35,823 bases of DNA from Muribaculaceae bacterium (GTDB lineage Bacteria; Bacteroidota; Bacteroidia; Bacteroidales; Muribaculaceae): NCBI GenBank assembly GCA_017559355.1, contig JAFYSL010000057.1, forward strand, positions 1-35,823. The letters run 5' to 3'. Positions within the stretch are counted from its first letter, which is position 1. Each line of letters starts with the position of its first letter. Position numbers and translations under genes: made by a program. Under the pieces are notes generated by a model. The model had not been told where the DNA came from and did not search any database. It was given only the letters and a program-made list of their open reading frames with translations. Positions 6,184 through 27,844 of this stretch are shown piece by piece.

Positions 6184-6227
6184 ATGTTACCATAATAAGT
6201 GGGTAACATTGGTAACGATGGTAACAT
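6184..6227 (-). repeat. GTTACC element, copy R1
   Basis: Read on the minus strand it has three GTTACC boxes at 9-bp steps, a spacer (CACTTATTAT), then GGTAACAT. It fills the 45-base gap between the convergent ends of nadE and the symporter gene and touches the symporter stop codon. No T-run follows it on either strand, so it is not a standard terminator. Confidence 0.9.
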
Positions 6228-7615
6228 TATTTATCCCAGCAGGGAGTTTTGCTCGCAATTTGTGGAATGGCTGATGAATGATAGACGGGGTTATATCCAC
6301 GGAGTCGTTGATTGCGATAGTCGTCGAGTGCTTTAATGGCATATTTACCTAGTACGAGGATTGCTGCGAGGTTGCATATAGTCATCATACCCATTGTAAT
6401 ATCGGCAAGAGCCCACACAAGGTCAAGACTTGCTACTGCTCCTATCATTACCATTGCTCCAACAGTTAGACGATAAGCATATAACACCCAACGATTGGAG
6501 GTAAGAAACTGAATATTAGTCTCTCCGTAATAATAATTCCCAACGATACTTGTAAAGGCAAAAAGGAATATCGCAATTGATATGAAATAGGCTCCAATTG
6601 GTCCTATTTCGCTCACTAATGCCATTTGAGTGAGTTCGATGCCGTTGTATTGTGTATAAAATGTGCCACTGCAAAGGATAATGAGCGCAGTGCAGGTGCA
6701 TATAATTAAAGTATCGGTATAAACGGCAAGAGTTTGCACTAATCCTTGTTTTACTGGGTGACTCACTGATGCAGTTGCTGCTACATTGGGGGCAGAACCT
6801 TCGCCAGCCTCGTTGCTAAACAATCCACGTTTTATCCCCATAAGCATAGCCATTCCTAATCCACCTCCAATGGTCGACTCAATAGAGAACGCTTCGGTAA
6901 CGATGAGTTTCAAAACCGAAGGAATCTGCGTGATATTGAGACTTAATATTACTATGGCAAGCAAAATATAAGCAATAGCCATAAATGGCACTACAATTTC
7001 GCTAAAACGAGATATGCGATGAATGCTTCCACATATAATAATTAACGCTGTTGCGGTGAGAATGATACCAACAATCATTGGCGACCATCCAAATGATGCT
7101 TTTACTGCCGATGCGATGGTGTTGCTTTGCACTGAGTTGTAGGCAAGACCAAAGGTAATTGTGATGAGTATTGCAAAGGTGTTTGCCCACAGTTTGTTTC
7201 CTATTCCATATTTGATATAGTAGGCAGGACCTCCCATAAATGAGTTTTCCCCTTTAATTTTATAGATTTGGGCGAGAGTTGACTCAATAAATGCGTTTGC
7301 AGCACCAAGTAGGGCAATCACCCACATCCAAAATACTGCTCCTGGCCCACCAATGGCGATTGCCGTTGCAACACCTGCAAGATTGCCTGTGCCCACACGA
7401 CTTGCTATTGATACAGTAAAGGCTTGAAACGAACTAATAGACTTTTTGCTCGATTCCTTGTCGGACTTTCCCGAATTGGCAAGTTCTTTTATCATATCGC
7501 CAATCATAGTAAATTGTACGCCACGAGTCTTTATTGTAAAATATATGGCACAAAACAGTAGGGATACAATGAGAAGGTAACTCCAAAAATCGTTTATGAT
7601 GTTAATAATTTCCAT
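6227..7615 (-). CDS. Alanine/glycine:cation symporter (AGCS family)
   Basis: A 462-residue polytopic inner-membrane protein of the sodium:alanine/glycine symporter family. Family signatures include TIKTRGVQFTMIGDM near the N-terminus, SRVGTGNLAGVATAIAIGGPGAVFWMW, and KRGLFSNEAGEGSAPNVAATA around the middle. About ten hydrophobic segments are visible. It takes up alanine or glycine with Na+ or H+. It begins 18 bases after the tamB stop codon on the same strand, so it may be read through from tamB, although the functions are unrelated. It ends at element R1. The substrate cannot be fixed from sequence. Confidence 0.93.
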   Translation of the reverse strand: MEIINIINDFWSYLLIVSLLFCAIYFTIKTRGVQFTMIGDMIKELANSGKSDKESSKKSISSFQAFTVSIASRVGTGNLAGVATAIAIGGPGAVFWMWVIALLGAANAFIESTLAQIYKIKGENSFMGGPAYYIKYGIGNKLWANTFAILITITFGLAYNSVQSNTIASAVKASFGWSPMIVGIILTATALIIICGSIHRISRFSEIVVPFMAIAYILLAIVILSLNITQIPSVLKLIVTEAFSIESTIGGGLGMAMLMGIKRGLFSNEAGEGSAPNVAATASVSHPVKQGLVQTLAVYTDTLIICTCTALIILCSGTFYTQYNGIELTQMALVSEIGPIGAYFISIAIFLFAFTSIVGNYYYGETNIQFLTSNRWVLYAYRLTVGAMVMIGAVASLDLVWALADITMGMMTICNLAAILVLGKYAIKALDDYRNQRLRGYNPVYHSSAIPQIASKTPCWDK

Positions 7616-7633
7616 TTATAGTCCAATCAGAGG

Positions 7634-10600
7634 TTACTTTTCTTTTACAGCAGTACTATCGATAGGAGTCGCTGGGATAATCGTTTTAGTAGTATCAACA
7701 ACTATGGAGTCGGGAATGTTTTTAGATTTTTTTGAATTAGATGAACGGAATATATTGTCAAAGTCTTGACGGTACATAATACCCACACCTTGAGTTGTAG
7801 TGGCTGTTTTGATATAGTAGTTTTGGTCGTTATAACGGTTATATGCTTTCAAACGCCATGAACCACGAGGAGTGAGAAGGTATTCGAGGTCAAAATCTCC
7901 AATGAATTGGTTGGTGTTGAGTGATTTATCGCGATAACCGAAATTGCCATTAAGACGTAGACGGTTGTTAAGAAGTGTACTTGAAAGAGCCACATCGACC
8001 TCTACATCAGAGAAGTCGCCTAGGTCGCTTCGGAGGTTGGGGGATATGGTCCAATTTTCGCTCAATTGTCCGAGCATACTACTCAATTGTGATGAAATAG
8101 TTGATGATGCCACCGAGAATAGTTCGTTACCGCTAGTGGTAGTCATATATTCGGGTGTGTAGAATCGGTTGAGGGCGAGAAGATATAGACATTGACGTTT
8201 CATCATATCCTCAGTGCTCACAATGCTATTTACTTTACTTTCAATATCTCCTTTAGAGTTAGCAAATGATGGGAACTCGAGTTTGTAGTTAATGTCGGGT
8301 TGAGTCATGATACCTTTAATGTCAAATACCACATCGATAGGCACATTGGTGTTATTGATACTCTTATCTTCGAGGAATGACTGGTCGAGGTCGCTGAGGC
8401 TGGCTTTCACTGGGTATACAGCCGAAATATCTAATTTAGCAGCCATAGGATCGCCGTCAAACGAAATCTTGCTATCATCTCGCAATTTGAAATCTTTGAT
8501 AATAATATCTTGGAGTGTGAAGTTGTAGCTACCTTTATCGATTTCGTATGTGCCATACATCTTCACATCTTCGTTGGCTGAGCCGTAGTGTAGTTTAAGT
8601 TGGCCTTCGCCGTTGGCTTTAATTTTGTCACCACCTACAGGGTCCATTACTAAAGTAATTTGGGCATCGGGGGTTACATCGACGATAATATCAAGATTGA
8701 ACTCCGATGAACTTTCCTCTTCAACCTTTTTTATTTGTTCTTTGAAGCGTGTGACCTCAATAGGAGTCTCTCCTATAGGTGTTATTGTCTTCTCTTTTCC
8801 TATGTTATTTTTGTCGCGGAAAGTAAGGAAATTGTAGTCGTAGGCATTTTGAGTGTCAGAAATGACAAATGTAAATGTTGATTTAGGTGCACTTTTCATC
8901 TCAACGTTGATGTTTACTACACCCGGTTTTCCTTCAATGCGAGCAAATCCGTTACCATTGATGTGACCAAACCAAGTATCGGTAGGTGATTCTTTTACAT
9001 CGTAGCAAAGGAAGTTTTTTGTGTTAGTAATATTGAACTCAAATTCAGCATCTCTGAAGTAATTGTGACGTAGCTCTCCATTGAGTGTGGCAGTGTTGCC
9101 CGATGGGTCGTAGAGCGTGATGTCGCTCATTTTTATTAATCCTGGGCGGAAATGCACTGAATCGGTGGTAGAGTAAGTAACATTGGTGTAATCAATGTGA
9201 AGTTTGAGGTTTTCGGCTAATACATCACCCTCTAAGTTAATGTCTTTGAATGGACCAAATAGACGAGCTTTGCCCGATGCTTTACCACTTACATTAGATG
9301 CAAATGCCGATACGAATGGCTCTAAGAATGATGCATCGACTCGGGTTACATCAAATCGCAAATCAAGGGCCTCTTTAATGGGATATATCTCGCAGTTAAT
9401 GTAAGAGTCTTTAATGCCAGGTTGGAATATTTCAGCATCAATGTGCACAGCTCCGAGGTCGTTGTCCCAGTGTGATACAATATCGGCATCGCCAAACACA
9501 GCACCATTGTAGCTGATGCCTTTAACTTTTAGCAGTGGAGTATAGGCTACTGGTTGCTTGCTAAAAAGATTGCGAGCATAGAATGTGCCAGTAGCATCTC
9601 CGCCAATGTTAACTTGATTGATTTGTAGGGTTTGAAATATGTAGTCGAGATTTACATTCTTGAGATTGAGGCATAGACTATCGTTGGGCGAAGGAGATGC
9701 TTTGCCTGAGAGAGTAATGAATTGATCGGCATGGCGTGCGTCAAAGTTATCTACGGTTATACTCTTGTCGGTATACTCGATGTGAGCTTGGTTAATGGTC
9801 CACACACTATCGTTAAATACTAATTGACTTGGGTTGATGTCGAGGTTGACTGCAAGAGAGTTATCCTCATTGCGAGAGAATAGAGTAGAGAGATCGAGTG
9901 CGCCTTCAAAACGCTCTTTGCGATTGATTTTCCAGTTTATGTAGGTGTCTAGACGATTGTCAATACCATTGCAAGAGATGTCGATAGGCATCATGCCATG
10001 TTTTGTAGGGAATTCGGAGTGTGCAACAAGTTGACATTTGTCAAAATTTTTGTCGATATCTATGAGTAGATAAGTACTTTCGTAGAGTTTCTTTTTCTTT
10101 GCAAAATAGGGGATATATACTGCCAAATCAATGCGTTGTGATGATTGGTTCATCTCGCCGTTGATAGTGATAGGAGAGAAGAGACGTAATTCGGGATTGA
10201 AATACGATAATACCTCATTGTCGCTATTGATAGTGATGTTGTAAAGGAAGTCGTTGGGCTTGGTAGTGATAGATTCGGTAATGTTGTTTTGTGCCATTTG
10301 AGATTCGTTGCCAAGGATAACTGGGAATGCATTGTTGAGCATTGCTTTGATTGATGGCACGAGGGTGTTGAATGAGTAACTGCCTTCGATTGATGCATTT
10401 AGGAGGTCGGATGTGACCTTTATTTGTTGAGGATAGTTACTATTTTGGACATTTAGATTGACCTCTTTGATGTGGAGTGATTCTTCAGGACGATTGTTAA
10501 AGTTAATGTCACTAATATTGACGTTCCCATTGATCGTGTTGAGGTCAAAACCCTGAATGTCGGCTTTTATGTCGGCGTCAATAGTACAATACTCTTTAGA

Positions 10601-12193
10601 GAGCGCAGTCTCGTGAAGATTAAAGTATGGAATTGATGCATAAACCGATGCTGTGGGTGTCTCTTTGTTAAGATTTGCACTACCCATTAACTCGAGTTGT
10701 AGGCAAGAATCCCTGACCTCTGCGTAGGTAGAAAACTCATCGTCAATGAGATGTCCTCTTAAATTGATATTGTTGTAGCGATAGTTGTTGTAGTCAAGAT
10801 GATCGATAAATGATTCAACTTTGATGGTGCGATATCCTTTGCCGAGGTTAATCTCAAAGTCGCATGAACCAGTTGTAGTGCCAAATTGAGGGTTAATTAC
10901 CTGACCAATATTGAGATTGGAGGTGTTGACATCGCCGTGAACCGAGAGAGCGTTCTTGTTAGACGCAAGTTTGTAGTTGACATCAAGGTCCACATTCCCT
11001 ATGCCCGAGTTGATGTTACCAACGAGGTGTGCGTCAATAGGTTTACCATTGAATTGTGCGTTTAGGTCAACATTTCCCAATTGTGCTATTTTGTTGCCAA
11101 CCTGTGGTTTGATAACATTAATCGAGGTGAGAAGATTGCTTAAATCGTTGGCGTTGGTTTTAATCGTAAGCGATGGGAGGTTTATATCCATCAACTCAGG
11201 ATGCTTAACGCCAGAGATATGTCCAGTTGTAGATATGTTGATATTTTTTGAATCGTGGGCAATGCTGAATGACTTAATTGATAGATTATTGAGATTGCCG
11301 TTTAGATTGAAATCGATATTAAATCGTTGGTCGGCATTTTTTAGAGTAGGAACAAATGGGGCGAGGTCACCGATGTTAATGTGACTGCCTTTGTGAAGCG
11401 CAATGTTAAGAGGAATTTCTTTCAATTCGTTGGTGGCGAGATTGATGTCGCCAAAGTTGAGTGATGAATTGTTGAGAGCTATGCTCAGTCCATCCACCTC
11501 AATAGCGTCGGCAGTAATATGGAAATCGCCTGTTAGCGAGGTGATATTTATGCCCGAATGCTCTTGGATTTGAAAACGCTTAATATTGAATATGAAATCG
11601 TTGTTTTTGAGCTGTGGTAGGTATACATCGGCATTGAAATCGCTCACTTTGATATGGTTTTTGTCAAAGCGGTTAGCGAGAGATGGCTCGGATAGAATAT
11701 CAAACGAAGCATGCGATTCACGTATTACTATCGTGTTGACGCGAAGGTCAAACTGTGTAGGAGGCTTGTTTTTGTCCTTTGGTTGAAGGTGGTCGATGAT
11801 TCCTTGAATGTTAAGTGGTGCAGAGGGGTTGTTTTTATACAATCGAGCATCAAGACCGATGATGGCAGCATGGGTTATTACGATTTTTTCGTTGTTAAAA
11901 AGTTCGTAAAGGTCAATGCCAGCAGCAATGGTTTCTACCTTGAGGGCATCTTTGTTGTAGTCATCTTTGATTGTAACATCACCTACGGCAATGTGGTTGA
12001 AAGGTGTGATTTTAACGCGTTCGATATTAACCTCAGTGCCAAGCAGTTTGCTTAATTCAGTTTCGCTCACTTTACACAATTTTTGTTGCACCTGGGGGAG
12101 TGAAACAACTACAAACAAAGCCATCGGCAACACTATGAAAAGTGCCAATAGTGAGATGAGCAATGTGCGTAATATTGTATAAAGTACCTTCAT
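7634..12193 (-). CDS. tamB: TamB-like translocation/assembly module protein (AsmA-like, DUF490)
   Basis: A 1519-residue protein with one N-terminal membrane anchor (about 5-32) and a very long beta-rich periplasmic region, ending in the TamB (DUF490) domain around residues 1080-1490 (for example GTYEIDKGSYNFTLQD and KLRDDSKISFDGDP). TamB/AsmA-like proteins span the periplasm as hydrophobic grooves and are implicated in lipid transport to the outer membrane and in outer-membrane protein assembly. The length is usual for Bacteroidetes members. From memory, Bacteroides genomes often have tamB divergent from tsaD; here nadE and a symporter lie between them. A -7 box (TAAATTTG, 12210-12217) is 17 bases upstream of the ATG. 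Confidence 0.92.
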   Translation of the reverse strand: MKVLYTILRTLLISLLALFIVLPMALFVVVSLPQVQQKLCKVSETELSKLLGTEVNIERVKITPFNHIAVGDVTIKDDYNKDALKVETIAAGIDLYELFNNEKIVITHAAIIGLDARLYKNNPSAPLNIQGIIDHLQPKDKNKPPTQFDLRVNTIVIRESHASFDILSEPSLANRFDKNHIKVSDFNADVYLPQLKNNDFIFNIKRFQIQEHSGINITSLTGDFHITADAIEVDGLSIALNNSSLNFGDINLATNELKEIPLNIALHKGSHINIGDLAPFVPTLKNADQRFNIDFNLNGNLNNLSIKSFSIAHDSKNINISTTGHISGVKHPELMDINLPSLTIKTNANDLSNLLTSINVIKPQVGNKIAQLGNVDLNAQFNGKPIDAHLVGNINSGIGNVDLDVNYKLASNKNALSVHGDVNTSNLNIGQVINPQFGTTTGSCDFEINLGKGYRTIKVESFIDHLDYNNYRYNNINLRGHLIDDEFSTYAEVRDSCLQLELMGSANLNKETPTASVYASIPYFNLHETALSKEYCTIDADIKADIQGFDLNTINGNVNISDINFNNRPEESLHIKEVNLNVQNSNYPQQIKVTSDLLNASIEGSYSFNTLVPSIKAMLNNAFPVILGNESQMAQNNITESITTKPNDFLYNITINSDNEVLSYFNPELRLFSPITINGEMNQSSQRIDLAVYIPYFAKKKKLYESTYLLIDIDKNFDKCQLVAHSEFPTKHGMMPIDISCNGIDNRLDTYINWKINRKERFEGALDLSTLFSRNEDNSLAVNLDINPSQLVFNDSVWTINQAHIEYTDKSITVDNFDARHADQFITLSGKASPSPNDSLCLNLKNVNLDYIFQTLQINQVNIGGDATGTFYARNLFSKQPVAYTPLLKVKGISYNGAVFGDADIVSHWDNDLGAVHIDAEIFQPGIKDSYINCEIYPIKEALDLRFDVTRVDASFLEPFVSAFASNVSGKASGKARLFGPFKDINLEGDVLAENLKLHIDYTNVTYSTTDSVHFRPGLIKMSDITLYDPSGNTATLNGELRHNYFRDAEFEFNITNTKNFLCYDVKESPTDTWFGHINGNGFARIEGKPGVVNINVEMKSAPKSTFTFVISDTQNAYDYNFLTFRDKNNIGKEKTITPIGETPIEVTRFKEQIKKVEEESSSEFNLDIIVDVTPDAQITLVMDPVGGDKIKANGEGQLKLHYGSANEDVKMYGTYEIDKGSYNFTLQDIIIKDFKLRDDSKISFDGDPMAAKLDISAVYPVKASLSDLDQSFLEDKSINNTNVPIDVVFDIKGIMTQPDINYKLEFPSFANSKGDIESKVNSIVSTEDMMKRQCLYLLALNRFYTPEYMTTTSGNELFSVASSTISSQLSSMLGQLSENWTISPNLRSDLGDFSDVEVDVALSSTLLNNRLRLNGNFGYRDKSLNTNQFIGDFDLEYLLTPRGSWRLKAYNRYNDQNYYIKTATTTQGVGIMYRQDFDNIFRSSNSKKSKNIPDSIVVDTTKTIIPATPIDSTAVKEK

Positions 12194-12209
12194 CGTAATA
12201 ATTAACCTA

Positions 12210-12217
12210 CAAATTTA
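12210..12217 (-). promoter_or_regulatory. Likely -7 element of tamB
   Basis: TAAATTTG on the minus strand, just upstream of the tamB ATG. No clear -33 TTTG is visible at the right distance. Confidence 0.4.
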
Positions 12218-12297
12218 CGATTTTTTTGCCGTTTACACATTGTAATATAAGAAAAAGATGTGCGAAAAATTCTATAATCATCAACGGAAACGTATCT

Positions 12298-12350
12298 GTT
12301 ACCATTGTTACCGATGTTACCGCTGTTTTTTATGGTAACACGGGTAACAT
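12298..12350 (+). repeat. GTTACC element, copy R2
   Basis: Three GTTACC boxes (first spacing 9, second 9), spacer GCTGTTTTTTAT, then GGTAAC, ACG and GGTAACAT. The two right-hand boxes can pair with two left-hand boxes. It is nearly identical to copy R3 in the opposite orientation, sharing the whole spacer and right arm. Confidence 0.92.
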
Positions 12351-12438
12351 GGAGAGTAGATGGTAAAGTGGTTATAAATTTTCTATTCTCAATTTTTCAT
12401 TTTGTGCATTATCGCAGTTTTTTGGATATTTCGTGTTG

Positions 12439-12446
12439 TAACTTTG
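12439..12446 (+). promoter_or_regulatory. Likely -7 element of the AAA ATPase gene
   Basis: TAACTTTG followed by C matches the Bacteroidetes -7 box. The only upstream TTTG is at 12421-12424, closer than usual, so the -33 is uncertain. It predicts a leader of about 130 bases. Confidence 0.45.
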
Positions 12447-12508
12447 CATCATCAAAGCAATGGTGACGAACCTTTGAGTTCAAGACATTCTACACTTATA
12501 CTTTGGTG

Positions 12509-12530
12509 CTACTATTATAAGTAATAGTGG
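12509..12530 (+). promoter_or_regulatory. Stem-loop in the leader of the AAA ATPase gene
   Basis: CTACTATTA (12509-12517) pairs with TAATAGTGG (12522-12530) with one G-U pair and a 4-base loop. It lies in the untranslated leader and is not followed by a T-run, so it could be an operator or an RNA regulatory hairpin rather than a terminator. Confidence 0.35.
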
Positions 12531-12581
12531 TAGGGGTGGTATATATTACTATTAACAAGTTAATCTAATATCTATTTAATT

Positions 12582-13577
12582 ATGAATCAAATGAATGAAA
12601 AGTATCAAATGCAAGATCTAATGCAAGAAATGGCACAATCTTCAATCAAAATCAAGGATAACTCGCTAATTACCGTAACCTCGGCAAAGGAATTGCGTAG
12701 CGAGATTGCTAATGTGAAGGATTTGGTTCCTCTATACGAACCATATTTCTACGAAGGTGAGTGTAGTGTTCTATTTTCTGATACCAATACAGGAAAGTCG
12801 ATTCTCTCGGTGCAGATTGCCGATGAGATTTCGCGCAATGGCAACAGGGTATTATATCTCGACTTTGAAATGTCGCTACGACAATTTGCTTCGCGTTGTC
12901 GTGATGAAAATGGTAATGTGTATGAGTTTCACGATAATTTTATGCGTGGTAGTATTAATCTTGAAACTATTCTTAGTCAGGAAGATGTAAACTATGAGAA
13001 TGAACTTATTTCCACGATTGAAAATCGCATAAAAGTATTTGAACCACAAGTGGTTATAATTGACAATCTTACATATCTATGCATTCAAAGTGAATCGGGT
13101 TCGGAGGCTGGTGCATTGATGCGACGCTTGATTGAAATAAAAAATCGTTATGGTATTTCGATGCTTGTGATTTCTCACACTCCAAAACGAAATCTTAGCG
13201 AACCATTGACAGAGAATTCGCTAGCTGGAAGTAAGCGAATAGCAAACTTTGCCGATTCAATGTTTGCGATAGGAAAGAGTGTAGTAGATGATAATATTCG
13301 CTATATTAAGCAGATAAAGAGTCGTAGTGGGGAGATTGTATATGGAGCATCTAATGTGCAAGCATGTTATATTGACCGACAAGATGGATTATTGAAATTT
13401 ATCTCTATGGGAGAGTCTTGCGAGAGCGAACACTTGCGACAAAAGGGTAAAAAGCGAGATATGACTGAAGAGATACGCCAATTGCTGAAAGAGGGTAAGT
13501 CTATTAGAGAAATCGCAACTCAATTGCAGGTGAGTAATCGTGCTATCTACAAAGTAAAATCAGAGATGGGACTATAA
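12582..13577 (+). CDS. AAA family ATPase, RepA/RecA-like, with C-terminal helix-turn-helix
   Basis: A 331-residue P-loop ATPase of the RecA/RepA (AAA_25) type. The Walker A is SDTNTGKS (66-73), an LYLDFEMS strand follows at 91-98, the Walker B is VVIIDN (157-162), and a sensor-like SHT is at 198-200, followed by GSKRIANFADS. The last 40 residues form a helix-turn-helix (GKSIREIATQLQVSNRAIYKVK). Related proteins are hexameric helicases or replication initiators carried by plasmids and integrative elements of Bacteroidales. Here it lies between two inverted GTTACC elements and is followed by a DUF6371 gene, a common pairing in mobile DNA. No integrase or relaxase is visible nearby, so it may be a domesticated or remnant module. 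Confidence 0.85.
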   Translation: MNQMNEKYQMQDLMQEMAQSSIKIKDNSLITVTSAKELRSEIANVKDLVPLYEPYFYEGECSVLFSDTNTGKSILSVQIADEISRNGNRVLYLDFEMSLRQFASRCRDENGNVYEFHDNFMRGSINLETILSQEDVNYENELISTIENRIKVFEPQVVIIDNLTYLCIQSESGSEAGALMRRLIEIKNRYGISMLVISHTPKRNLSEPLTENSLAGSKRIANFADSMFAIGKSVVDDNIRYIKQIKSRSGEIVYGASNVQACYIDRQDGLLKFISMGESCESEHLRQKGKKRDMTEEIRQLLKEGKSIREIATQLQVSNRAIYKVKSEMGL

Positions 13578-13593
13578 TCAAGTATTAAGAGAA

Positions 13594-13645
13594 ATGTTAC
13601 CCGTGTTACCATAAAAAACAGTGGTAACATTGGTAACATGGTAAC
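13594..13645 (-). repeat. GTTACC element, copy R3
   Basis: On the minus strand it reads as three GTTACC boxes (first spacing 8 rather than 9), spacer ACTGTTTTTTAT, GGTAAC, ACG, GGTAACAT. It is about 50 of 53 positions identical to R2 but inverted. It lies between the ATPase and DUF6371 genes, inside what should be one transcript. Confidence 0.92.
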
Positions 13646-13671
13646 AATTGTTGTGAAAAATATTGAATAAT

Positions 13672-14379
13672 ATGAGCGCTAAATTTGAACGTAATAAGCT
13701 AATAGAGAGTACTATGCAAAACGAGTTAAACTATTTTGCAAATCCACTTGTGGAGCATATGTGTAGCATGTATCGTACTCCTGATATATATTGGTCGTTT
13801 CTTAATCTCATGCGACGATATTGTGTGGGAATTACTCATAATGATGGAGTGGTGTACTGGCAAGTGGGTAAAAATGGGGAGTGTAATTTGGGGAAAGTGG
13901 TGAGGTATGACTCTAATGGAGAGGCATGTAAATGGAGTGATATTGAGTGGTTGTCGCTTGACCAATCAATGCCCACTAATCAGTTGCAACGATACCCTTT
14001 TGGATTACATTTGTTGCCAAATCACCCACAAGATGTGTCGATAGCAGTGGTGGCAAATGAGGTGTCGGCATTATTGGCAATGACATATAATGTGATTTAT
14101 CTGCGCAATGATAAGCAGCTGCCTCTGTATATTGCTACTGGAGGTATGGGAACTATGGATACATTGCAACACCTACAAGGTAGAAATGTAACACTGTTTC
14201 CCGATGATGATCTTACCGAAACATGGACTTATTTGGCTCAAATGCAGAGTGATAAATTCAAGTCAATAGAGGTGTGCCCGATGGTTCGCAATATGGTGAA
14301 CCGCTCGTTACTTCCTCCTGGTAGCACCTTTACTGATATGATTGCTACTTGGCGTCAAAATAAACTGAGGAGAGTCTAA
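13672..14379 (+). CDS. DUF6371 toprim-like protein
   Basis: A 235-residue protein resembling the DUF6371 family, found with RepA-like ATPases on Bacteroidales elements and thought to be primase-related. The pattern is: FANPLVEHM at the start, YCVGITHNDGVVYWQVG, GKVVRYDSNG, PFGLHLLP, a toprim-like VANEVSAL with the acidic residue, IATGGMGTMDTLQHLQGRNVTLFPDDD, then a TW helix. The N-terminal zinc finger of longer relatives is not seen. I start at ATG 13672; a TTG further upstream is possible. It follows the ATPase gene by 94 bases with R3 in between. A DNA-primase role is inference. Confidence 0.7.
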   Translation: MSAKFERNKLIESTMQNELNYFANPLVEHMCSMYRTPDIYWSFLNLMRRYCVGITHNDGVVYWQVGKNGECNLGKVVRYDSNGEACKWSDIEWLSLDQSMPTNQLQRYPFGLHLLPNHPQDVSIAVVANEVSALLAMTYNVIYLRNDKQLPLYIATGGMGTMDTLQHLQGRNVTLFPDDDLTETWTYLAQMQSDKFKSIEVCPMVRNMVNRSLLPPGSTFTDMIATWRQNKLRRV

Positions 14380-14415
14380 ATTTATTACATTCTTTTCATT
14401 TTCAACTAAAAAACT

Positions 14416-14423
14416 TATCTTTG
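14416..14423 (+). promoter_or_regulatory. -7 element of the serine hydrolase gene
   Basis: TATCTTTG followed by C is an exact Bacteroidetes -7 box, 22 bases upstream of the ATG at 14446. The -33 is not obvious. Confidence 0.55.
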
Positions 14424-14445
14424 CACAAAACAAAATTATTTAACC

Positions 14446-15945
14446 ATGATAAAGAATCAATTACGATTAAAAACTCTTTTATGTGCCATCGTGTTGATGG
14501 CGAGTGTGTGTGCAAGTGCTGCATATCGTCTGCCTCGCACTACTCCCACATCGGCTGGGATTGAACCCAAGCAGTTTGAATTGCTTTATGACTCATTGTT
14601 GTCGAGTGATATTACTGAAATACATCACCTTATGGTGGTTGTAGATGGAAAAGTGGCTGGCGAAATCCACCCTGCGCCATTTAAGGCAAGTGATCGTCAC
14701 ACACTCTATTCGGTGTCTAAAACTTTTACTGCTGTGGCAGTTGGCCTTGCTGTTGACGATGGGTTGTTGTCGGTTGACGATGAGTTAGTAAAGTTCTTCC
14801 CTCAATATGCTCAATACATTGGCGGTATTAAGGTTAAAGATGTGCTCACAATGCGCTCGGGATTCAAAACCAATGGTGGAATGCGTAATTCGCAAACCGA
14901 CTGGGTTGATTATTACCTATCTCGTCCACTTGTGGCGACTCCTGGTACAAAATACTCTTATGATTCAATCGAAACATATCTATTATCGGCTATTGTGCAA
15001 CAAGTTACGGGTAAAGATGTTCTTACATTGCTCAACGAACGAGTGTTCTTCCCAATGGGCATCGATGATGTGGAGTGGGAGAGATGTCCTAAAGGAATCG
15101 TTACTGCAGGTTGGGGTATTTATATGACAGCCGAAGCGCAAGCAATGTTTGGTCAATTGTTGCTCCAAAAAGGTAATTGGAAGGGTCAACAACTCGTGTC
15201 GCAAGAGTGGGTTGAAGAGATGATGACAGTGAGAGTAGTGCGAAAAGCATCTAACGATTATGGCTATCAAATATGGCTCTGTGAATACCCTGGTGCATGG
15301 CGTGCTGATGGTGCTTATGGACAATATATAATCATTGTGCCTCAAAAGAATATGGTAGTAGTGTTAAATCAATGCTCAAAGAGTAAAGGCTGGCCCGAAA
15401 GAAGCAATATTTGGCACACTGTAGTGAAGAATGCTCATGGCTGTGCTATTGAAGGAGAGCCTGATGAACTTGAAAATTTAGCAAAATTTGAGGCAAATGC
15501 ATCGCTTCCTTTGTTAAAAGGTGATGCTACAAATGCTTTGGCGAAGAAATATAACGGAAAAGAGTATAAATTACCCAAAAACAAACTCGGTTGGAAGTCG
15601 ATTAAGTTCAACTTTGAACCAAATAAATTCACTCTTAACGTAGTAGATGCCGAGGGTAAAAAATCGGCAATTGCAATGGGTTACAATGAGTGGTTGATGA
15701 GTGATTTGGCGGGGTATCCACACTATTCAATCAGTGCAAAAGGACGATTTACAGGTATAACTGGCCCATTTACAACCGGTGCGTGCTATGCGTGGAACAA
15801 TGACAATACTCTCTCTGCTAAAATTCACTACACCAATTGGATTACCTCATTAAAGTTAGACTTTAAGTTTAATGAAAAAGGTGGTTTGCAAATTGAAATT
15901 GTAGAGAATTTCCTCAAGCAACCTTTCACAATTGAAGTGGAGTAA
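14446..15945 (+). CDS. Exported serine hydrolase, beta-lactamase (class C) family
   Basis: A 499-residue protein with a signal peptide (about 1-25, cleaving after CASA) and a class C beta-lactamase-like serine hydrolase domain at about 35-340. The active-site SxxK is S89-V-S-K92, followed by TFTAVAVGLAVDDG. The Tyr motif is PGTKYSYDSIETYLLSAIVQQ, where YxN is replaced by a YSYDS form seen in esterase-like members. A C-terminal beta-rich domain (about 370-499) is extra. Members of this family include D-aminopeptidases, esterases and penicillin-binding-like enzymes, so a true beta-lactamase role is not implied. It has its own promoter and a terminator at 16000-16038. Confidence 0.87.
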   Translation: MIKNQLRLKTLLCAIVLMASVCASAAYRLPRTTPTSAGIEPKQFELLYDSLLSSDITEIHHLMVVVDGKVAGEIHPAPFKASDRHTLYSVSKTFTAVAVGLAVDDGLLSVDDELVKFFPQYAQYIGGIKVKDVLTMRSGFKTNGGMRNSQTDWVDYYLSRPLVATPGTKYSYDSIETYLLSAIVQQVTGKDVLTLLNERVFFPMGIDDVEWERCPKGIVTAGWGIYMTAEAQAMFGQLLLQKGNWKGQQLVSQEWVEEMMTVRVVRKASNDYGYQIWLCEYPGAWRADGAYGQYIIIVPQKNMVVVLNQCSKSKGWPERSNIWHTVVKNAHGCAIEGEPDELENLAKFEANASLPLLKGDATNALAKKYNGKEYKLPKNKLGWKSIKFNFEPNKFTLNVVDAEGKKSAIAMGYNEWLMSDLAGYPHYSISAKGRFTGITGPFTTGACYAWNNDNTLSAKIHYTNWITSLKLDFKFNEKGGLQIEIVENFLKQPFTIEVE

Positions 15946-15999
15946 CATAATGTGCGTGGTGCATAGTTAAGTGTAGAGAAATTTTACATATAAATACAA

Positions 16000-16038
16000 A
16001 TAGCGAGTGGCTCATTGAGTCGCTCGCTATGTTTTTTT
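16000..16038 (+). terminator. Terminator after the serine hydrolase gene
   Basis: ATAGCGAG (16000-16007) pairs with CTCGCTAT (16023-16030), followed by GTTTTTTT. It lies between convergent genes and may also act for the DnaJ gene on the other strand, where an AT-rich tract follows. Confidence 0.8.
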
Positions 16039-16118
16039 CTGGGAGGTGTAGGGGAGAAACCACCAGGTGATATAAATACGATAGTCGCTATGAAACGAGA
16101 TGTATATATAATGGTGTT

Positions 16119-16898
16119 TTAGCTTATGCCCCTTTCTTTGTAGATTTTGTCTTTTGCTTCGTTGATTTGACGGAATTTCTCCTCGGCAGCTTTGCGAATA
16201 TCTTCGCCAAGAGATGCCACACGGTCGGGGTGGTGTTTAAGGGCGAGTTTGCGATATGCAGCTTTTACCTCGTCGTCGGTTGCTGTTGGAGAGATCTCAA
16301 GTACTTTGTATGCAGCATCGAGAGTGTTGCGACCAAGGTTGAGCATAGAGTCGACCTCGCTTGTCGATAACCCCATTGCTGATGCTACCTCTTTGAGAGC
16401 TTCAATCTCCTTGTCGCACACATGTCCATCGCTTTGGGCAATCATGGCAAGGAAACGAAGAAGTTGTAGGCGTTCTTCGTAGGTGAGATTTGATGCTATT
16501 TGTCGACCGCAATCGTAGATGGTGCTACGGAATGCAGAAGGGTTGATGGCATCCATCTGTTTGCGACGTTCAAAGAGGTTGAGAAGAATTTGATTTCCTT
16601 CAATAGCTGCTTCGGGTCCAAAGTTATTGCGAAGGAATTGTCTCACAAATTCCATTTCGCTATGCATGATTTTGCCGTCGGCTTTAATGATGTATGAAGC
16701 CATAACGAGCATAGAGAATAGGAACGAATTGCGTTGTCCCGATTCGGGCGATGCGGTGTTGTGTTCAACTGTAGTTTGATTTGAAGAGTTTTTGGCATCA
16801 GAGTCGATTATTGCTCCGATGGCAAATCCGGCAAGAGCGCCGAGAGGACCAGCCGTCATCCAACCTATAAATCCTCCAATCCATTTTCCAAAAGCCAT
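16119..16898 (-). CDS. TerB and DnaJ domain protein (DjlA-like)
   Basis: A 259-residue co-chaperone-like protein. The first 35 residues form a glycine-rich hydrophobic segment ([24 protein letters not shown]) that could insert in a membrane. A TerB-like helical domain covers about 55-180 ([18 protein letters not shown], later [18 protein letters not shown]). A J domain (about 192-257) has the essential HPD in [12 protein letters not shown]. This layout matches DjlA. J domains stimulate Hsp70 (DnaK) ATPase activity. It is transcribed alone from a TATCTTTGC box at 16938-16946. Confidence 0.9.
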
Positions 16899-16937
16899 AG
16901 TGGTGTTTTATATTATTAATGTATTGCGTATTTTTTT

Positions 16938-16946
16938 GCAAAGATA
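16938..16946 (-). promoter_or_regulatory. -7 element of the TerB-DnaJ gene
   Basis: TATCTTTGC on the minus strand, 40 bases upstream of the ATG. No clear -33 TTTG is seen. Confidence 0.5.
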
Positions 16947-16996
16947 GTTGATTTGGGTGAAACATTTTGTGGTATAAAGATAAATTTGAATCATAT

Positions 16997-17040
16997 ATGT
17001 TACCATCGTTACCAATGTTACCGATAAAAAAGGGTAACAT
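16997..17040 (+). repeat. GTTACC element, copy R4
   Basis: Three GTTACC boxes at 9-bp steps, spacer GATAAAAAAG, then a single GGTAACAT. It lies upstream of both divergent promoters, between the DnaJ and exbB genes. Confidence 0.9.
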
Positions 17041-17126
17041 CGGAAAAATAGAGTAGAGATAGTGGGAGAGTAGAAATGCATAAAAGTATAAAAAGAGTGA
17101 AAAAATGCCCAATAAAAGTTTGATAG

Positions 17127-17160
17127 TTGAAAATATAGTATTATTTTTGCAATGTCATTT
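17127..17160 (+). promoter_or_regulatory. Promoter of the exbB-exbD-exbD-tonB operon
   Basis: TTG at 17127-17129 and TATTTTTG at 17152-17159 are separated by 22 bases. The predicted leader is about 110 bases long and AT-rich. Confidence 0.45.
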
Positions 17161-17278
17161 ATTGGGTAAAATACATACATTTGGTAAGACGCGTAGATGA
17201 CAAAATGATGAGAAAAGAAAGTTTAAATAAATTAATAAACTAATTATCAATTAATAACAAATTTTTAATTTTTAAATT

Positions 17279-18103
17279 ATGGAAGCTAAAAAGCCCGCAA
17301 CAAAGCCTGCTAAGGCTCAAAAATCAAATGCACCCGGTATCAAGAAAGCCTCTTGGGTAATCTTCGCGTGTATGGTAGTAACATTCTGTCTTTTCTTCTT
17401 CTGGTTTGGTAACCCATCACACTTCCAAGATGGCAACCCAGATGGACACCCAATCAACATTTGGGGTACAATCTACAAAGGTGGTATCATCGTGCCTATC
17501 CTCCAAGGTTTGTTCTTGACAGTAATCGTACTTTGCGTAGAACGTTTCTTTGCTCTTAACTCAGCAAAAGGTAAAGGTGACATCACAAAATTCGTTGCTA
17601 ACGTAAAAGCTAACCTCGTAAAAGGAGACATCGCTGCTGCACAAGACCTTTGCAAAAAACAAGGTGGTAGCGTTGCTGCTGTAGTTGCTGCTGCACTCGT
17701 TCGTTACGACGAAATGGACAAAAATACAGTTCTTTCTAAAGAACAAAAAATTGCAACTATCCAAAAAGAACTTGAAGAAGCAACAGCTCTTGAAATGCCA
17801 TCTCTTCAACAAAACCTTCCTATCGTTGCAACAATGACAACTCTTGGTACTCTCGTTGGTCTTCTCGGTACTGTAATCGGTATGATCAAATCGTTCCAAG
17901 CTCTTTCTGCATCTGGTGCTCCTGACTCAACTGAACTTTCAGCTGGTATCTCTGAAGCGCTTATCAATACTGCATTCGGTATCGCAACTGGTGCGTTCGC
18001 TGTAATTGGTTACAACTTCTATACTAACAAAATCGACCACCTCACTTACGCAATTGACGAAATCGGTTTCTCAATCGTGCAAACATTTGCTGCAACTCAC
18101 TAA
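17279..18103 (+). CDS. exbB: MotA/TolQ/ExbB family proton channel protein
   Basis: A 274-residue ExbB. The N-terminus is rich in Ala, Lys and Pro (1-22) and cytoplasmic; membrane segments lie near 25-45, 70-90, 180-205 and 225-245. The conserved core is NLPIVATMTTLGTLVGLLGTVIGMIKSFQAL, followed by GISEALINTAFG. ExbB and ExbD form the proton-driven motor that energises TonB and, through it, outer-membrane transport by TonB-dependent receptors such as SusC-type porins. It is first in a four-gene operon. Codons ending in C or T are strongly preferred (AAC, CTC, TTC) compared with nearby genes, as expected for a highly expressed gene. Confidence 0.94.
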   Translation: MEAKKPATKPAKAQKSNAPGIKKASWVIFACMVVTFCLFFFWFGNPSHFQDGNPDGHPINIWGTIYKGGIIVPILQGLFLTVIVLCVERFFALNSAKGKGDITKFVANVKANLVKGDIAAAQDLCKKQGGSVAAVVAAALVRYDEMDKNTVLSKEQKIATIQKELEEATALEMPSLQQNLPIVATMTTLGTLVGLLGTVIGMIKSFQALSASGAPDSTELSAGISEALINTAFGIATGAFAVIGYNFYTNKIDHLTYAIDEIGFSIVQTFAATH

Positions 18104-19700: not shown

Positions 19701-19747
19701 TTTTGTGTGAATGAACTATATATTAACCTGTTAAAACGTAAAGAAAA

Positions 19748-20608: not shown

Positions 20609-20640
20609 TATTACTTGATAATATTAAAACCTCTATAACG

Positions 20641-20675: not shown

Positions 20676-20680
20676 CTTTA

Positions 20681-20715
20681 TTTGGCGTAATTTATAAATA
20701 AAATCAGTATATTTG
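20681..20715 (+). promoter_or_regulatory. Promoter of the small membrane protein-dxs-trkA-trkH genes
   Basis: TTTG at 20681-20684 and TATATTTG at 20708-20715, with 23 bases between. Transcription from here would place element R5 in the untranslated leader. Confidence 0.5.
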
Positions 20716-20732
20716 CATGTTAATAGTGACTG

Positions 20733-20776
20733 ATGTTACCATAGTTACCAATGTTATCCATGGTAACGGGTAACAT
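20733..20776 (+). repeat. GTTACC element, copy R5
   Basis: Boxes GTTACC, GTTACC and a variant GTTATCC, then ATGGTAACGGGTAACAT. The spacer is almost absent, so the arms form a tight hairpin. It is predicted to lie inside the leader RNA of the following gene. Confidence 0.88.
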
Positions 20777-20801
20777 TGTGAACTCATACAAAGCAAAAGA
20801 A

Positions 20802-20981
20802 ATGAAATTTTCTATCATACTGAGATTTGTAATATTAGGAGCATTATGGTTGGCGCTTAGTTATATGGTAGTGGCAACTGCTAAACCTATAACCCTCTAC
20901 ACTTGGTTTGTGGTCATAGCTTCGGGTATAATTATTTTTGCTCCTATGTATAAAAAATATTTTGGCAGCAAACGAAAATAA
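20802..20981 (+). CDS. Small two-helix membrane protein, unknown function
   Basis: A 59-residue protein with two hydrophobic helices (about 5-26 and 31-49) and a basic C-terminus (YKKYFGSKRK), so both ends are probably cytoplasmic. I chose the ATG at 20802, preceded by AAAGAA; an earlier in-frame ATG at 20751 would start inside element R5 and is unlikely. It lies 20 bases upstream of dxs and shares its promoter. I do not recognise the family. Small membrane proteins next to dxs occur elsewhere in Bacteroidales, but I cannot assign a role. Confidence 0.65.
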   Translation: MKFSIILRFVILGALWLALSYMVVATAKPITLYTWFVVIASGIIIFAPMYKKYFGSKRK

Positions 20982-21001
20982 CAAATTGTTGTTATAAAAT
21001 C

Positions 21002-24246: not shown

Positions 24247-24248
24247 TC

Positions 24249-25721: not shown

Positions 25722-25742
25722 AAACTATAACTCTTTGCATCA

Positions 25743-25785
25743 ATGTTACCATCGTTACCAATGTTACCCACATATTATGGTAACA
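25743..25785 (+). repeat. GTTACC element, copy R6
   Basis: Three GTTACC boxes at 9-bp steps, spacer CACATATTAT, then one GGTAACA. The spacer resembles that of R1 (CACTTATTAT), which also lies between convergent genes. It sits between trkH and the repeat-protein gene. Confidence 0.9.
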
Positions 25786-25852
25786 AGGAAGATGAAAAAT
25801 GAGAGTGTAGAGAGATTTCTTTAGATTGCGAGAAAATACAGCAGAGAATAAT

Positions 25853-26311
25853 CTATAACATTACGAACAAAATTGGAGGGAATTGCCCAACGACACGATA
25901 AATGATGTCGCTGGTGTATTCGCTATACCCCGAGTATAATCTACTATTACTCCATGTGGCAAGAATGTTTGATGTGTAATTGCTTTTGCCATAATAGATA
26001 TATTTCCCATCAAAAGTGTAGAGAATGTCGCTTGAATAGCTGCTGCGACCTTTATAGAGAAACTGTCCGTCCCAAGTAGCTAAGATGTCGGAACTATACG
26101 AGCTATTCCCTTTATAGAGATATTTTCCATCCCATGAGTAGATAATGTCGCTACTGTAGGTGCTATTGCCACGAAAAAGGTGCTTACCGTCCCATGTATA
26201 TAGACAATCGCTTGAATATGTGCTGTTCCCACGATAAATCTTAGTTTGGGCTACAACTGTCACACAACACGTTAATATGACTAATAATATGGTGAAAAAT
26301 CTACGTTTCAT
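25853..26311 (-). CDS. Exported protein with six 20-residue repeats, unknown function
   Basis: A 152-residue protein with a signal peptide (about 1-22, ending VVAQ). From residue 27 almost the whole mature chain is six tandem 20-residue repeats of the form G-x-S-x-Y-x-S-D-I-L-x-x-W-D-G-K-x-L-Y-x. The first four are most alike; the fifth and sixth lose the W-D-G turn. Alternating hydrophobic and aromatic residues suggest two short strands per repeat and a beta-solenoid or similar fold. The protein is probably periplasmic or surface-exposed. No catalytic motif is visible and I do not recognise the family. It has its own promoter (26335-26365). Confidence 0.75.
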   Translation of the reverse strand: MKRRFFTILLVILTCCVTVVAQTKIYRGNSTYSSDCLYTWDGKHLFRGNSTYSSDIIYSWDGKYLYKGNSSYSSDILATWDGQFLYKGRSSYSSDILYTFDGKYIYYGKSNYTSNILATWSNSRLYSGYSEYTSDIIYRVVGQFPPILFVML

Positions 26312-26334
26312 ATCTCTCTACTATTTGATTATCA

Positions 26335-26365
26335 CAAAGTAAGGCAATAAGTGTTATATATGCAA
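26335..26365 (-). promoter_or_regulatory. Promoter of the 20-residue-repeat protein gene
   Basis: On the minus strand TTG (26363-26365), 20 bases, then TTACTTTG (26335-26342). The -7 differs from consensus at one base. Confidence 0.4.
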
Positions 26366-26422
26366 GCGAGTAGGGGTATATAAAAGAAAAACGACCAAAC
26401 ATTTCTGCTTGATCGTATCGAG

Positions 26423-26496
26423 TAGCGGGAACGAGAGTTGAACTCGTGACCTCCGGGTTATGAATCCGACGCTCTAACCAACTGAGCTATCCCGCC
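26423..26496 (-). tRNA. tRNA-Met (anticodon CAT)
   Basis: A 74-base cloverleaf on the minus strand. The acceptor GGCGGGA pairs with TCCCGCT (one G-U), the D arm is GCTCAGTTGGTTAGAGC, the anticodon loop is TTCATAA, and the T arm carries GTTCAACTC. CCA is not encoded. The first base pair makes an elongator tRNA-Met more likely than the initiator; a lysidine-modified tRNA-Ile cannot be fully excluded. Confidence 0.92.
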
Positions 26497-26515
26497 ATAT
26501 TTCCGTTTTGCGAGT

Positions 26516-26548
26516 GCAAAGATAGTGGTTTTGTTTTATTCTGCCAAA
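26516..26548 (-). promoter_or_regulatory. Promoter of the tRNA-Met gene
   Basis: On the minus strand TTTG (26545-26548), 20 bases, then TATCTTTGC (26516-26524), a near-perfect Bacteroidetes promoter about 20 bases upstream of the mature tRNA. Confidence 0.65.
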
Positions 26549-26584
26549 TTTTTTAAGAGAAAAGCGAAAATAAAATCATTTCGA

Positions 26585-26935
26585 TTACTTAAAACCTCTG
26601 ATAAAGATAAATTCTTCGCTAATTCGAGCAAAAATATTGATTAATGAGTTATATGCAGAGAGTGAAATATTGCTATTGTCGTAAACAGTGTTTTCATCAT
26701 TGGTGGCGATGGTAATTTTGCAATATACATCGGTGGGCATAGGTTTATTGCTATCAGTAGAGAGTGCTTGAGTGATATAAGAGGCAGTTTCGGAGAGTTG
26801 CGCGAATGGAATTTCCCCCTCTTCGCAACTATCGGTAGTAGCAAAGCGATAGTATGCTCGTGAGGCATTGAGCATTATATCGGCACGAGCCATATTCTCA
26901 ACCGAAAATGTTGCTGTGATAGAAACGTATTGCAT
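26585..26935 (-). CDS. Hypothetical protein, 116 residues
   Basis: A soluble-looking 116-residue protein (MQYVSITATFSVENMARADI to EEFIFIRGFK) with no signal peptide, membrane segment or known motif. It alternates strand-like stretches (YVSITATFSV, YCKITIATND) and helical ones (AYNSLINIFARISEEF), suggesting an alpha/beta fold. It has its own -7 box on the minus strand (TAACTTTGC at 26953-26961) close to the ATG. It lies between the tRNA-Met gene and a small outer-membrane protein gene. The promoter and in-frame coding character make it a likely real gene, but I do not know its function. Confidence 0.6.
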   Translation of the reverse strand: MQYVSITATFSVENMARADIMLNASRAYYRFATTDSCEEGEIPFAQLSETASYITQALSTDSNKPMPTDVYCKITIATNDENTVYDNSNISLSAYNSLINIFARISEEFIFIRGFK

Positions 26936-26952
26936 ATCCTTTTATCTTTGAT

Positions 26953-26961
26953 GCAAAGTTA
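26953..26961 (-). promoter_or_regulatory. -7 element of the 116-residue protein gene
   Basis: TAACTTTGC (minus-strand reading of GCAAAGTTA), 18 bases upstream of the ATG. Confidence 0.4.
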
Positions 26962-27044
26962 GTAATAGATTGTGTTATAGAAAAATTTTATGATGATATC
27001 GAAATTTTTCATAAACGAAATGTTTAATATGTGTGTTTATGTAT

Positions 27045-27052
27045 TATCTTTG
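27045..27052 (+). promoter_or_regulatory. -7 element of the outer-membrane barrel gene
   Basis: TATCTTTG followed by C, 39 bases upstream of the ATG at 27092. Confidence 0.5.
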
Positions 27053-27091
27053 CATCATAACAATATTAAATACTAACATAAATTGTAAATT

Positions 27092-27736
27092 ATGAAATCA
27101 ATTAAACGTTTTGTTGCTGTTGTAATCGTATGCGTTGCAATCGCTCTTCCAGCTTCGGCTCAATTCTCATTTGGTATTAAAGCTGGTGCCAAAATAAATG
27201 AAATTCCTGAAAATATCGGTGCTTTTGAGTTTGATGATTGTGCTGGTTTTACTGGTGGTATTATGGGTGAATTCACTTTCCCTATCGTAGGGCTAGGCGT
27301 TGATGCATCAGTGATGTATTCATATGAACCTATTTCTGCAGAACGTGAGTATGGCAAAAAAGAGACATCCTATACCGGAGCTAATCACTATCTTGATATT
27401 CCTATTAATTTGAAATATAAACTTTTAATTCCAGCTGTTGAGGAATTTGTAGCACCTTATGTATTTACTGGTCCTAATTTCTCATTTATGTTGAGTAAAG
27501 ATACTCAATCATTTGACCAATATTTCACTCAAAATCCAGTTGAAGTAGCTTGGAATCTTGGTATCGGTCTTGAATTGTTTAATCATCTTCAAATTGGTGC
27601 AAGCTATGGTTGGGGATTGAATAAATATATCACTGATTACGAAATTTTAGACGGAAATGTTGCTGACGCTAACCGATATATTAGCAATGGTAATAGAAAG
27701 AACTGTTGGACTATCACTGCAGCTTACTTGTTCTAA
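27092..27736 (+). CDS. Small outer-membrane beta-barrel (porin-family) protein
   Basis: A 214-residue protein with a signal peptide (MKSIKRFVAVVIVCVAIALPASAQ). The mature chain alternates strands typical of an eight-stranded OmpA/OmpX-like barrel: FSFGIKAGAKI at the start, a central YLDIPINLKYKLLI, EVAWNLGIGLELFNHLQIGASYGWGL, and a final WTITAAYLF with the C-terminal aromatic. Bacteroidetes encode many such 'porin family / outer membrane beta-barrel' proteins of unknown substrate. It is a single gene with its own promoter and terminator. Confidence 0.87.
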   Translation: MKSIKRFVAVVIVCVAIALPASAQFSFGIKAGAKINEIPENIGAFEFDDCAGFTGGIMGEFTFPIVGLGVDASVMYSYEPISAEREYGKKETSYTGANHYLDIPINLKYKLLIPAVEEFVAPYVFTGPNFSFMLSKDTQSFDQYFTQNPVEVAWNLGIGLELFNHLQIGASYGWGLNKYITDYEILDGNVADANRYISNGNRKNCWTITAAYLF

Positions 27737-27761
27737 TAATAGAATTTCATAAAAACATCAT

Positions 27762-27797
27762 AGACTGTCATCTCACAAGGGTGGCAGTCTTTTTTTA
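27762..27797 (+). terminator. Terminator after the outer-membrane barrel gene
   Basis: AGACTGTCAT (27762-27771) pairs with GTGGCAGTCT (27781-27790) with two G-U pairs, followed by TTTTTTT. Element R7 follows immediately. Confidence 0.85.
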
Positions 27798-27799
27798 TA

Positions 27800-27844
27800 A
27801 TGTTACCATATGTTTCCCATGTTACCATCGGTAACGGGTAACAT
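27800..27844 (+). repeat. GTTACC element, copy R7
   Basis: The most diverged copy: GTTACC, a variant GTTTCCC, GTTACC, then ATCGGTAACGGGTAACAT. It lies between the terminator of the barrel gene and the stop codon of the convergent gene, 4 bases from that stop. Confidence 0.85.

Follow-up and report, generated by a model that had tools for sequence, protein, structure and literature searches.

GTTACC elements around a helicase-like ATPase gene in a Muribaculaceae genome: candidate iteron arrays with scattered solo copies

Between the genes of a 35,823-nucleotide contig from a Muribaculaceae bacterium (hereafter the window) lie seven short elements built from GTTACC boxes, and they raise the question of what kind of sequence is scattered in this way and which protein it serves. 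From comparison of the sequences, we conclude that the elements are probably iteron arrays for the C-terminal helix-turn-helix (HTH) domain of a helicase-like ATPase encoded among them, at 12582–13577, and that the copies away from this gene, here called orphans, are probably solo-array footprints.

Counting stretches of up to 56 bp that hold three boxes or more, we find seven in the window, against one at most and 0.003 on average when the window is dinucleotide-shuffled 300 times; the elements are confirmed as real. Two of them enclose the ATPase gene. The upstream array (12297–12350, forward strand; also called copy 12298) has three direct boxes, a T-rich 12-nt spacer and two inverted boxes, and the downstream array (13594–13646, reverse strand) is an inverted copy of it. 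The other five are orphan arrays: 6184–6227 (reverse strand; three direct boxes and one inverted box), between the convergent genes for NAD synthase and a Na:Ala symporter; 16997–17040, between the divergent genes for TerB/DnaJ and ExbB; 20733–20776, between tonB and a small gene preceding dxs; 25743–25786, between the convergent genes trkH and Bflower_3; and 27800–27844, between convergent genes for an outer-membrane barrel protein and a product of unknown function (the last four all on the forward strand). In most copies the aligned plan is ATGTTACC-ATn-GTTACC-nAT-GTTACC, followed by a spacer and by one (6184, 16997, 25743) or two (12298, 13594, 20733, 27800) inverted boxes ending GGTAACAT.

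A preliminary description of this stretch had placed the copies correctly to 1–2 bases. Some details depart from the plan: copy 25743 ends in AACAA instead of AACAT, one of the spacers in copy 13594 measures 2 nt and one of those in copy 27800 measures 4 nt, and a single box is replaced by GTTATC in copy 20733 and by GTTTCC in copy 27800. Spacers are T- or A-rich in some window copies only. As had also been described, every copy lies between plausible genes, with copy 6184 overlapping a stop codon by one base; copy 16997 is crossed by two short open reading frames (ORFs; 90 and 104 aa), which we take to be chance.

A sequence model made from the seven window copies was run on the organism's own draft genome (1.78 Mb, 72% complete), where the best 150 of 584 candidates were scored. 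Nine strong matches were obtained (E 1.5e-13 to 4.6e-10), namely the seven window copies and copies at C56:679-722 and C76:13252-13296 on two other contigs; given how the model was made, only these last two are independent finds. Weaker matches (E 0.0014 to 0.13) were partial reverse reads of known elements, and the first unrelated place came at E 0.14. The profile scan proposed in the preliminary description yielded two further copies and no large family. The 1.78-Mb assembly holds just nine copies, and this 35.8-kb contig has seven of these, so that a genome-wide family resembling REP (repetitive extragenic palindromic) sequences or BIMEs (bacterial interspersed mosaic elements), as had been suggested there, is not supported. 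The model found no copy in 11 other genomes of the genus (150 of 366–624 candidates scored in each), and the strict GTTACC triple pattern was absent from the 60 relatives scanned. Five of the seven copies away from the ATPase gene are on this contig, although it accounts for 2.0% of the assembly; if copies were scattered evenly, the binomial probability of this would be 6.7e-8. Mis-binning of the contig was rejected: the dxs gene it carries shares 95% identity with dxs of congener G007 (72–81% with those of ten others), so the contig belongs to the genus.

Eleven equal-length pairs of copies are 75–96% identical over 44–45 bp, while their flanks average 27% (72 comparisons), the level of unrelated DNA. 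Copies 6184, 25743 and C56 are 91–95% identical, spacer included (95% for 6184 and 25743, 91% for 6184 and C56), and copies 27800 and C76 are 96% identical. High identity inside unrelated flanks indicates that the solo copies are copied units and not sites that arose individually, and the earlier view of a dispersed family of short elements is supported, with sharp borders. Four copies (6184, 25743, 27800 and C56) sit between convergent genes, two (12298 and 16997) between divergent genes, and three (13594, 20733 and C76) before or between genes in the same direction. On contig C56 (L258:1-722), the copy lies about 70 bp past a transposase-like ORF (labelled by reading) and the terminator-like hairpin of that ORF.

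The gene enclosed by the two arrays (12582–13577, forward strand) encodes an AAA_25, DnaB/KaiC-like ATPase of 331 aa (Pfam AAA_25, 3.9e-14) with a C-terminal resolvase-type HTH_7 domain (1.9e-5), which we propose as the box binder. The arrays, as the segments 12306–12350 and 13594–13638, are inverted repeats with 96% identity over 45 nt, and with the gene they form an array-gene-array unit (12297–13646). Against PHROG the ATPase matched a DnaB-like helicase (5.4e-20) and phage DnaB-like and primase/helicase families at about 1e-20, and its family profile matched the PDB primase/helicase chains 1cr0 and 1e0j (3e-4), which we take to be T7 gp4. Because single-sequence searches rank KaiC first (PDB, 2.3e-5; NCBIfam, 1.1e-11, far below cut-off), helicase activity is predicted from the superfamily. 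The predicted structure has a mean pLDDT of 81. The preliminary description had suggested looking for an associated transposase resembling RAYT (REP-associated tyrosine transposase) or for a DNA-binding protein: the associated gene lies inside the window, and it encodes a helicase-like ATPase with an HTH instead of a Y1 transposase. The flanked gene is not a RAYT gene, the rest of the genome not having been searched for one.

The gene that follows (13672–14379, forward strand) encodes a DUF6371 protein (Pfam PF19898, 2.7e-21). One of ten members matched a PHROG primase (2e-7), with a best E of 0.36 in PDB, and DUF6371 might possibly be a primase remnant, a suggestion we make weakly. The N-terminal zinc ribbon is missing in the DUF6371 proteins of the three carriers in the genus (G000, G009 and G003) and present in all ten other aligned members; motif residues are altered from ESEK to ANEV in the window and from FPD to FPG in G009. 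No integrase, excisionase or mobilization domain was found among the window proteins scanned.

Relatives of the ATPase carry arrays too. In congeners G003 and G009 (66–69% identical), arrays stand at the same two places, upstream and between the ATPase and DUF6371 genes, with the boxes GTTATC and GTTTCC in place of GTTACC. Within the family, 58 of 397 genomes have an ATPase homologue at E 1e-20, and relatives' arrays again consist of inverted box sets at steps of about 9 bp beside the ATPase gene, with boxes other than GTTACC. Four or more exact boxes in both orientations occur downstream in 23 of 34 loci (0 of 680 shuffles) and upstream in 12 of 35, counts that include some loci that are near copies of each other and exclude the imperfect downstream array of G009; with both sides pooled, none of 1380 shuffles reaches the four-box level. 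At this threshold nine loci have arrays on both sides. Homologues also occur in eight plasmid records from Bacteroides, Phocaeicola and Butyricimonas, seven of them with 47% identity over 83% of the query; among the seven records fetched, a DUF6371 gene follows the ATPase in four and Tn4555 genes are named in two.

The box sequence changes with the HTH. We named 56 loci and located 55 (L132 gave no match); a box label could be given in 40 of these, and the HTH helix was also readable in 38. L348 and L428 were omitted for array-like matches with conflicting or one-sided boxes, and the label of L330 rests on three boxes. Lysine at helix position 2 is found in 14 of 14 proteins with a TGTCC box and in 0 of 24 others, and an [LIV]xxVN helix in 15 of 15 proteins with a TGTTC box and in 0 of 23 others, so that the classes of helix and box agree without exception in the 38 proteins. 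Box and HTH helix change together among relatives, and the suggestion in the preliminary description that the 9-bp steps mark clustered protein-binding sites was its better guess. When the HTH is left out and a tree is built from the ATPase core, the box changes 12 times on the best tree, against a minimum of 4 and a mean of 20 when shuffled (as low in 0 of 200); the boxes are thus clustered by descent, although not through a single old split. Phylogenetically independent pairs were concordant in 3 of 3 and 5 of 5 cases. A prediction for viral loci was set down before the search output was read, and those with readable arrays fit it: 5 of 5 of the TGTTCA type and 2 of 2 of the TGTCCC type, the latter two being near copies of known loci.

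Paralogues within one genome show the same relation. Among 20 multi-copy loci in 8 genomes, three pairs have readable arrays in both members. The G246 paralogues, 92% identical over 1222 bp, differ in helix and box, with TGTTTC arrays (9 and 6 boxes) and helix VHR in one and TGTATC arrays (9 and 4) and helix VQR in the other. The G280 pair (80%) combines TGTCCC with SKT and TGTTTC with SVS, with the reservation that the array of L444 has three exact boxes only, and the G161 pair (77%) combines TGTCCC with SKS and GTTCAC with SVG. Copies in G103 and G061 end before the HTH or run on as long proteins, with no array by eye; those in G310 and G295 were unreadable, and those in G181 were compared with their arrays left unread. 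Three helicase copies in G103 (L451-L453) are 91–94% identical over 881–979 bp and all end before the HTH, again with no array by eye. On either side of the TGTATC helicase unit L456, on contig C14 of G246, stand AT-rich repeats that resemble each other (CACGAAGAAAA...TTTTCTTTGTGTG), at about 1205–1465 and 2535–2855 of that locus.

Evidence on how the elements spread comes from the congeners. G003 has a second locus at C10:68.08-68.63 kb, between ordinary genes, that is homologous to its unit on contig C6; the homology runs as far as the outer end of each array and no further, with a gap of about 950 bp in the gene. The pattern implies that an array-gene-array unit without DUF6371, laid out as in the window, once stood at this second place and has since decayed, which suggests that the unit moves. 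For a comparison with insertion sequences and MITEs, which have terminal inverted repeats and internally deleted copies, the inverted repeats around the window gene and this internally deleted copy supply one case each. G007, which has no GTTACC elements, lacks the gene pair: 62 bp separate its matches to TamB and a beta-lactamase-like gene, and a possible remnant of the DUF6371 end was seen there by eye. At site 16997, G007 has unrelated sequence of about equal length; at site 20733 its sequence is unrelated and 11 bp shorter, and G009 has almost nothing. Searches next to the orphan copies gave no convincing helicase or DUF6371 remnant (best E 0.79). Over window positions 1000–17300, the order and orientation of matches around TamB vary among G007, G009, G006 and G003, which points to inversions or moves in that region.

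The following account of how the arrays are bound, of their role as origins, of how units become solo arrays and of how the unit moves is inferred. The arrays up- and/or downstream of the relatives' genes are probably an origin and/or an operator. The helicase-like ATPase, as an oligomer, would read the inverted box sets through its HTHs; once bound to the boxes it would open the DNA and act with DUF6371, probably a primase, to replicate a mobile element. The window gene pair would be a chromosomal resident that is without integrase and mobilization genes and has lost the DUF6371 zinc ribbon. Array-gene-array units would have moved locally and then lost the gene, with the five window orphans and the C56 and C76 copies as footprints, and recombination between two near-palindromic arrays would produce a solo array with the observed borders.

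Several results weigh against this scheme. The unit encodes no transposase domain and no DNA-cutting or DNA-joining protein; a moved unit with array borders was found once only, in G003, and no target-site duplication was seen by eye. Of the three sites that can be compared in G007, two are not cleanly empty but filled with unrelated sequence of much the same length, and the third, 25743, falls inside about 130 bp missing from G007 rather than 44 bp. Exact 3+3 arrays, compatible with a hexamer, make up 8 of the 39 arrays listed, and an AT-rich origin core was rejected, the array spacers across the family being short, mixed and not AT-rich. Orphans are not a general feature: in G009 the arrays occur at the gene only, apart from a single site carrying two mismatches, and in the single-contig genome G122 arrays of its box were seen at one place. 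As to the helix-box relation, 15 of the 55 located rows were dropped because no clear array could be read and a further 2 because their HTH was unusual, most box labels were assigned by the author and not blind, and the sign tests on independent pairs gave p 0.25 and 0.0625, both above 0.05. The viral loci L420 and L429 carry a TGTTC-type helix with no array found, L428 has an array upstream only and with a different box, and in L456, the second G246 copy, the first array met upstream of the gene reads TGATTC x4 instead of TGTATC.

The most serious rival is a domesticated chromosomal system, in which the host would keep the ATPase and the arrays would be working sites for helicase loading, fork restart or local gene control. 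The ATPase is constrained (NG86 dN/dS 0.07 and 0.13 for the two of three pairs that were computable, with dS saturated) and its Walker-type residues are invariant, while dN is about twice as high in DUF6371, which has lost its zinc ribbon in the three carriers of the genus and has altered motif residues; these contrasts make the rival a serious one, and the lack of integrase and mobilization domains among the scanned window proteins fits it as well. The ATPase gene is however present in only 3 of the 12 genomes of the genus and so seems dispensable, and the orphans have mixed positions relative to genes, with no shared target class. We regard domestication on these grounds as unlikely, though not negligible. 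A bolder and tentative possibility, less likely than not, is that the unit is a minimal mobile element free of a transposase, with the HTH of a DnaB-like ATPase and its arrays coevolving and local self-copying leaving solo arrays, and that in this genus it is on its way to being domesticated with its primase disabled.

Tandem and inverted 9-bp boxes would also suit an ordinary transcription factor, unrelated to the ATPase and with its gene elsewhere, whose operators the elements would be, and copy 20733 stands directly after a TATATTTG string that resembles a Bacteroidetes promoter element; yet four of the seven orphans lie between convergent genes, unexpected for operators, and throughout the family the ATPase gene is accompanied by arrays of this plan with a box that follows its HTH, so we give operators little credence. 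Spread of a REP/BIME-like family through a Y1 (RAYT) transposase would account for short palindromic intergenic units in both orientations, for a gene between inverted copies and for scattered relatives, and the flanking structures of the Bacteroidetes RAYT subclass 2.6 are reported to be atypical (PMC6006769). With nine copies only, no GTAG foot, tandem 9-bp boxes in place of a single hairpin and a DnaB/KaiC-like ATPase as the flanked gene, this origin is very improbable. RNA hairpins acting as terminators or mRNA-end structures are the least credible of all: the arms can pair (minimum free energies of −8.8 to −19.8 kcal/mol for the nine copies, figures without a null model) and convergent genes border four of the nine, but an Rfam scan at gathering thresholds gave no match at the elements and found only a tRNA, copies also occur in divergent and upstream regions, and a hairpin would have no use for tandem boxes.

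Interpreted as iteron arrays, the GTTACC elements can be set beside known systems. The Rep protein of staphylococcal pathogenicity islands (SaPI) and Cch2 of the staphylococcal cassette chromosome SCCmec are self-loading helicases that recognise iterons beside their own gene, Cch2 through its C-terminal domain (PMC7581432), and origins of phage-inducible chromosomal islands (PICI) have an AT-rich region with a set of iterons on each side (PMC6092414). The window shares with SaPI/PICI Rep and Cch2 a helicase with a C-terminal DNA-binding domain, adjacent iterons and a primase partner (PMC7581432, PMC6092414). Unlike them, its ATPase is of the DnaB/KaiC type, its arrays are near-palindromic with short spacers that are not AT-rich, arrays may stand on both sides of the gene (the nine loci above), and orphan copies are scattered over the chromosome. 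By analogy with PICI and SCC elements, the helicase would bind its iterons through the C-terminal domain. Phage P4 alpha, a fused primase-helicase, is an initiator-helicase with short iterons, and its box resembles the TGTTCA class. The Tn4555/cfxA mobilizable elements of Bacteroides likewise have the ATPase followed by DUF6371, and their ATPase gene has a TGTCCC array behind it; the window differs in having no integrase, excisionase or mobilization gene, a shortened DUF6371 and the GTTACC box. According to a review from 2017, the replication of integrative and mobilizable elements after excision had never been a subject of study (PMC5704250). REP repeats and RAYT proteins are thought to coevolve, with solo copies between genes (PMC6006769). 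The window resembles them in layout only, a gene flanked by its own short palindromic repeat with scattered copies; protein class and repeat plan differ, there are nine copies, and the units begin ATGTTACC with no GTAG-type foot.

Similar arrays occur further afield. The pattern GTTACCn3GTTACCn3GTTACC gave at least 117 stretches in the genome collection, many of them coding-type tandem repeats by eye, and at least 120 in the viral collection, which were examined by tblastn. In other phyla, GTTACC arrays at L106, L034, L038, L095, L099 and L132 adjoin replication-type proteins of mobile elements, with DUF927 plus Cch-type HTH_56, Toprim/zinc-ribbon primase (Toprim_3), DUF5906, NrS-1-like or AAA_25 domains; these are six of ten proteins hand-picked among the listed GTTACC-triplet matches, the other four having no replication domain. 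The GTTACC box seems to be reused by several helicase types. Prevotella and other Bacteroidales carry sets of three multiple GGTTACC arrays, alternating in orientation over about 250 bp and often next to CACGTGT strings (L116:3559-3806, L119:2568-2810, L069:98-340 and L039:2888-3110); no replication protein was found with them, one neighbour having been scanned at each of three loci. A TGTTCA-triplet scan of the family matched 37 of 397 genomes; a reversed control pattern also matched in some genomes, and single matches there were therefore not used alone. In genus g17, TGTTCA arrays surround the helicase gene at distances of up to tens of kb, with six in 60 kb on contig C11 of G210 (L404-L406), which has an integrase gene, with four intergenic and the rest inside ORFs, and five in 40 kb on contig C66 of G406 (L407-L408), with two intergenic and the rest inside ORFs. 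Upstream of the helicase gene at L344 in G214 stand four tandem repeats of a unit, about 82 bp long, that carries a TGTCCA array. Elsewhere in the window, an ORF at 33202–34716 has an RHS-associated core domain (TIGR03696, 9.6e-13).

The elements are thus best read as a known kind of part, the iteron arrays of a mobile-element helicase. What is new is the presence of solo copies among housekeeping genes around the gene, together with the clear relation of helix to box. In the literature we found neither the setting of scattered solo arrays nor the helix-box relation described, the latter not having been queried directly; DUF6371 was named in one paper, and no publication holding two of the names NBU1, prmN1 and oriV1 was found. 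Since the helix-box relation can be read in 38 proteins, initiator specificity is testable with isolated domains. A dispersed, REP-like repeat with a partner that is not a transposase also leads one to ask by what means parts of an origin can be spread by helicase-type elements. Should the unit prove to be a minimal mobile element, the solo arrays would be analogous to the solo long terminal repeats of retroelements, and divergence of box specificity would allow several units to coexist in one genome.

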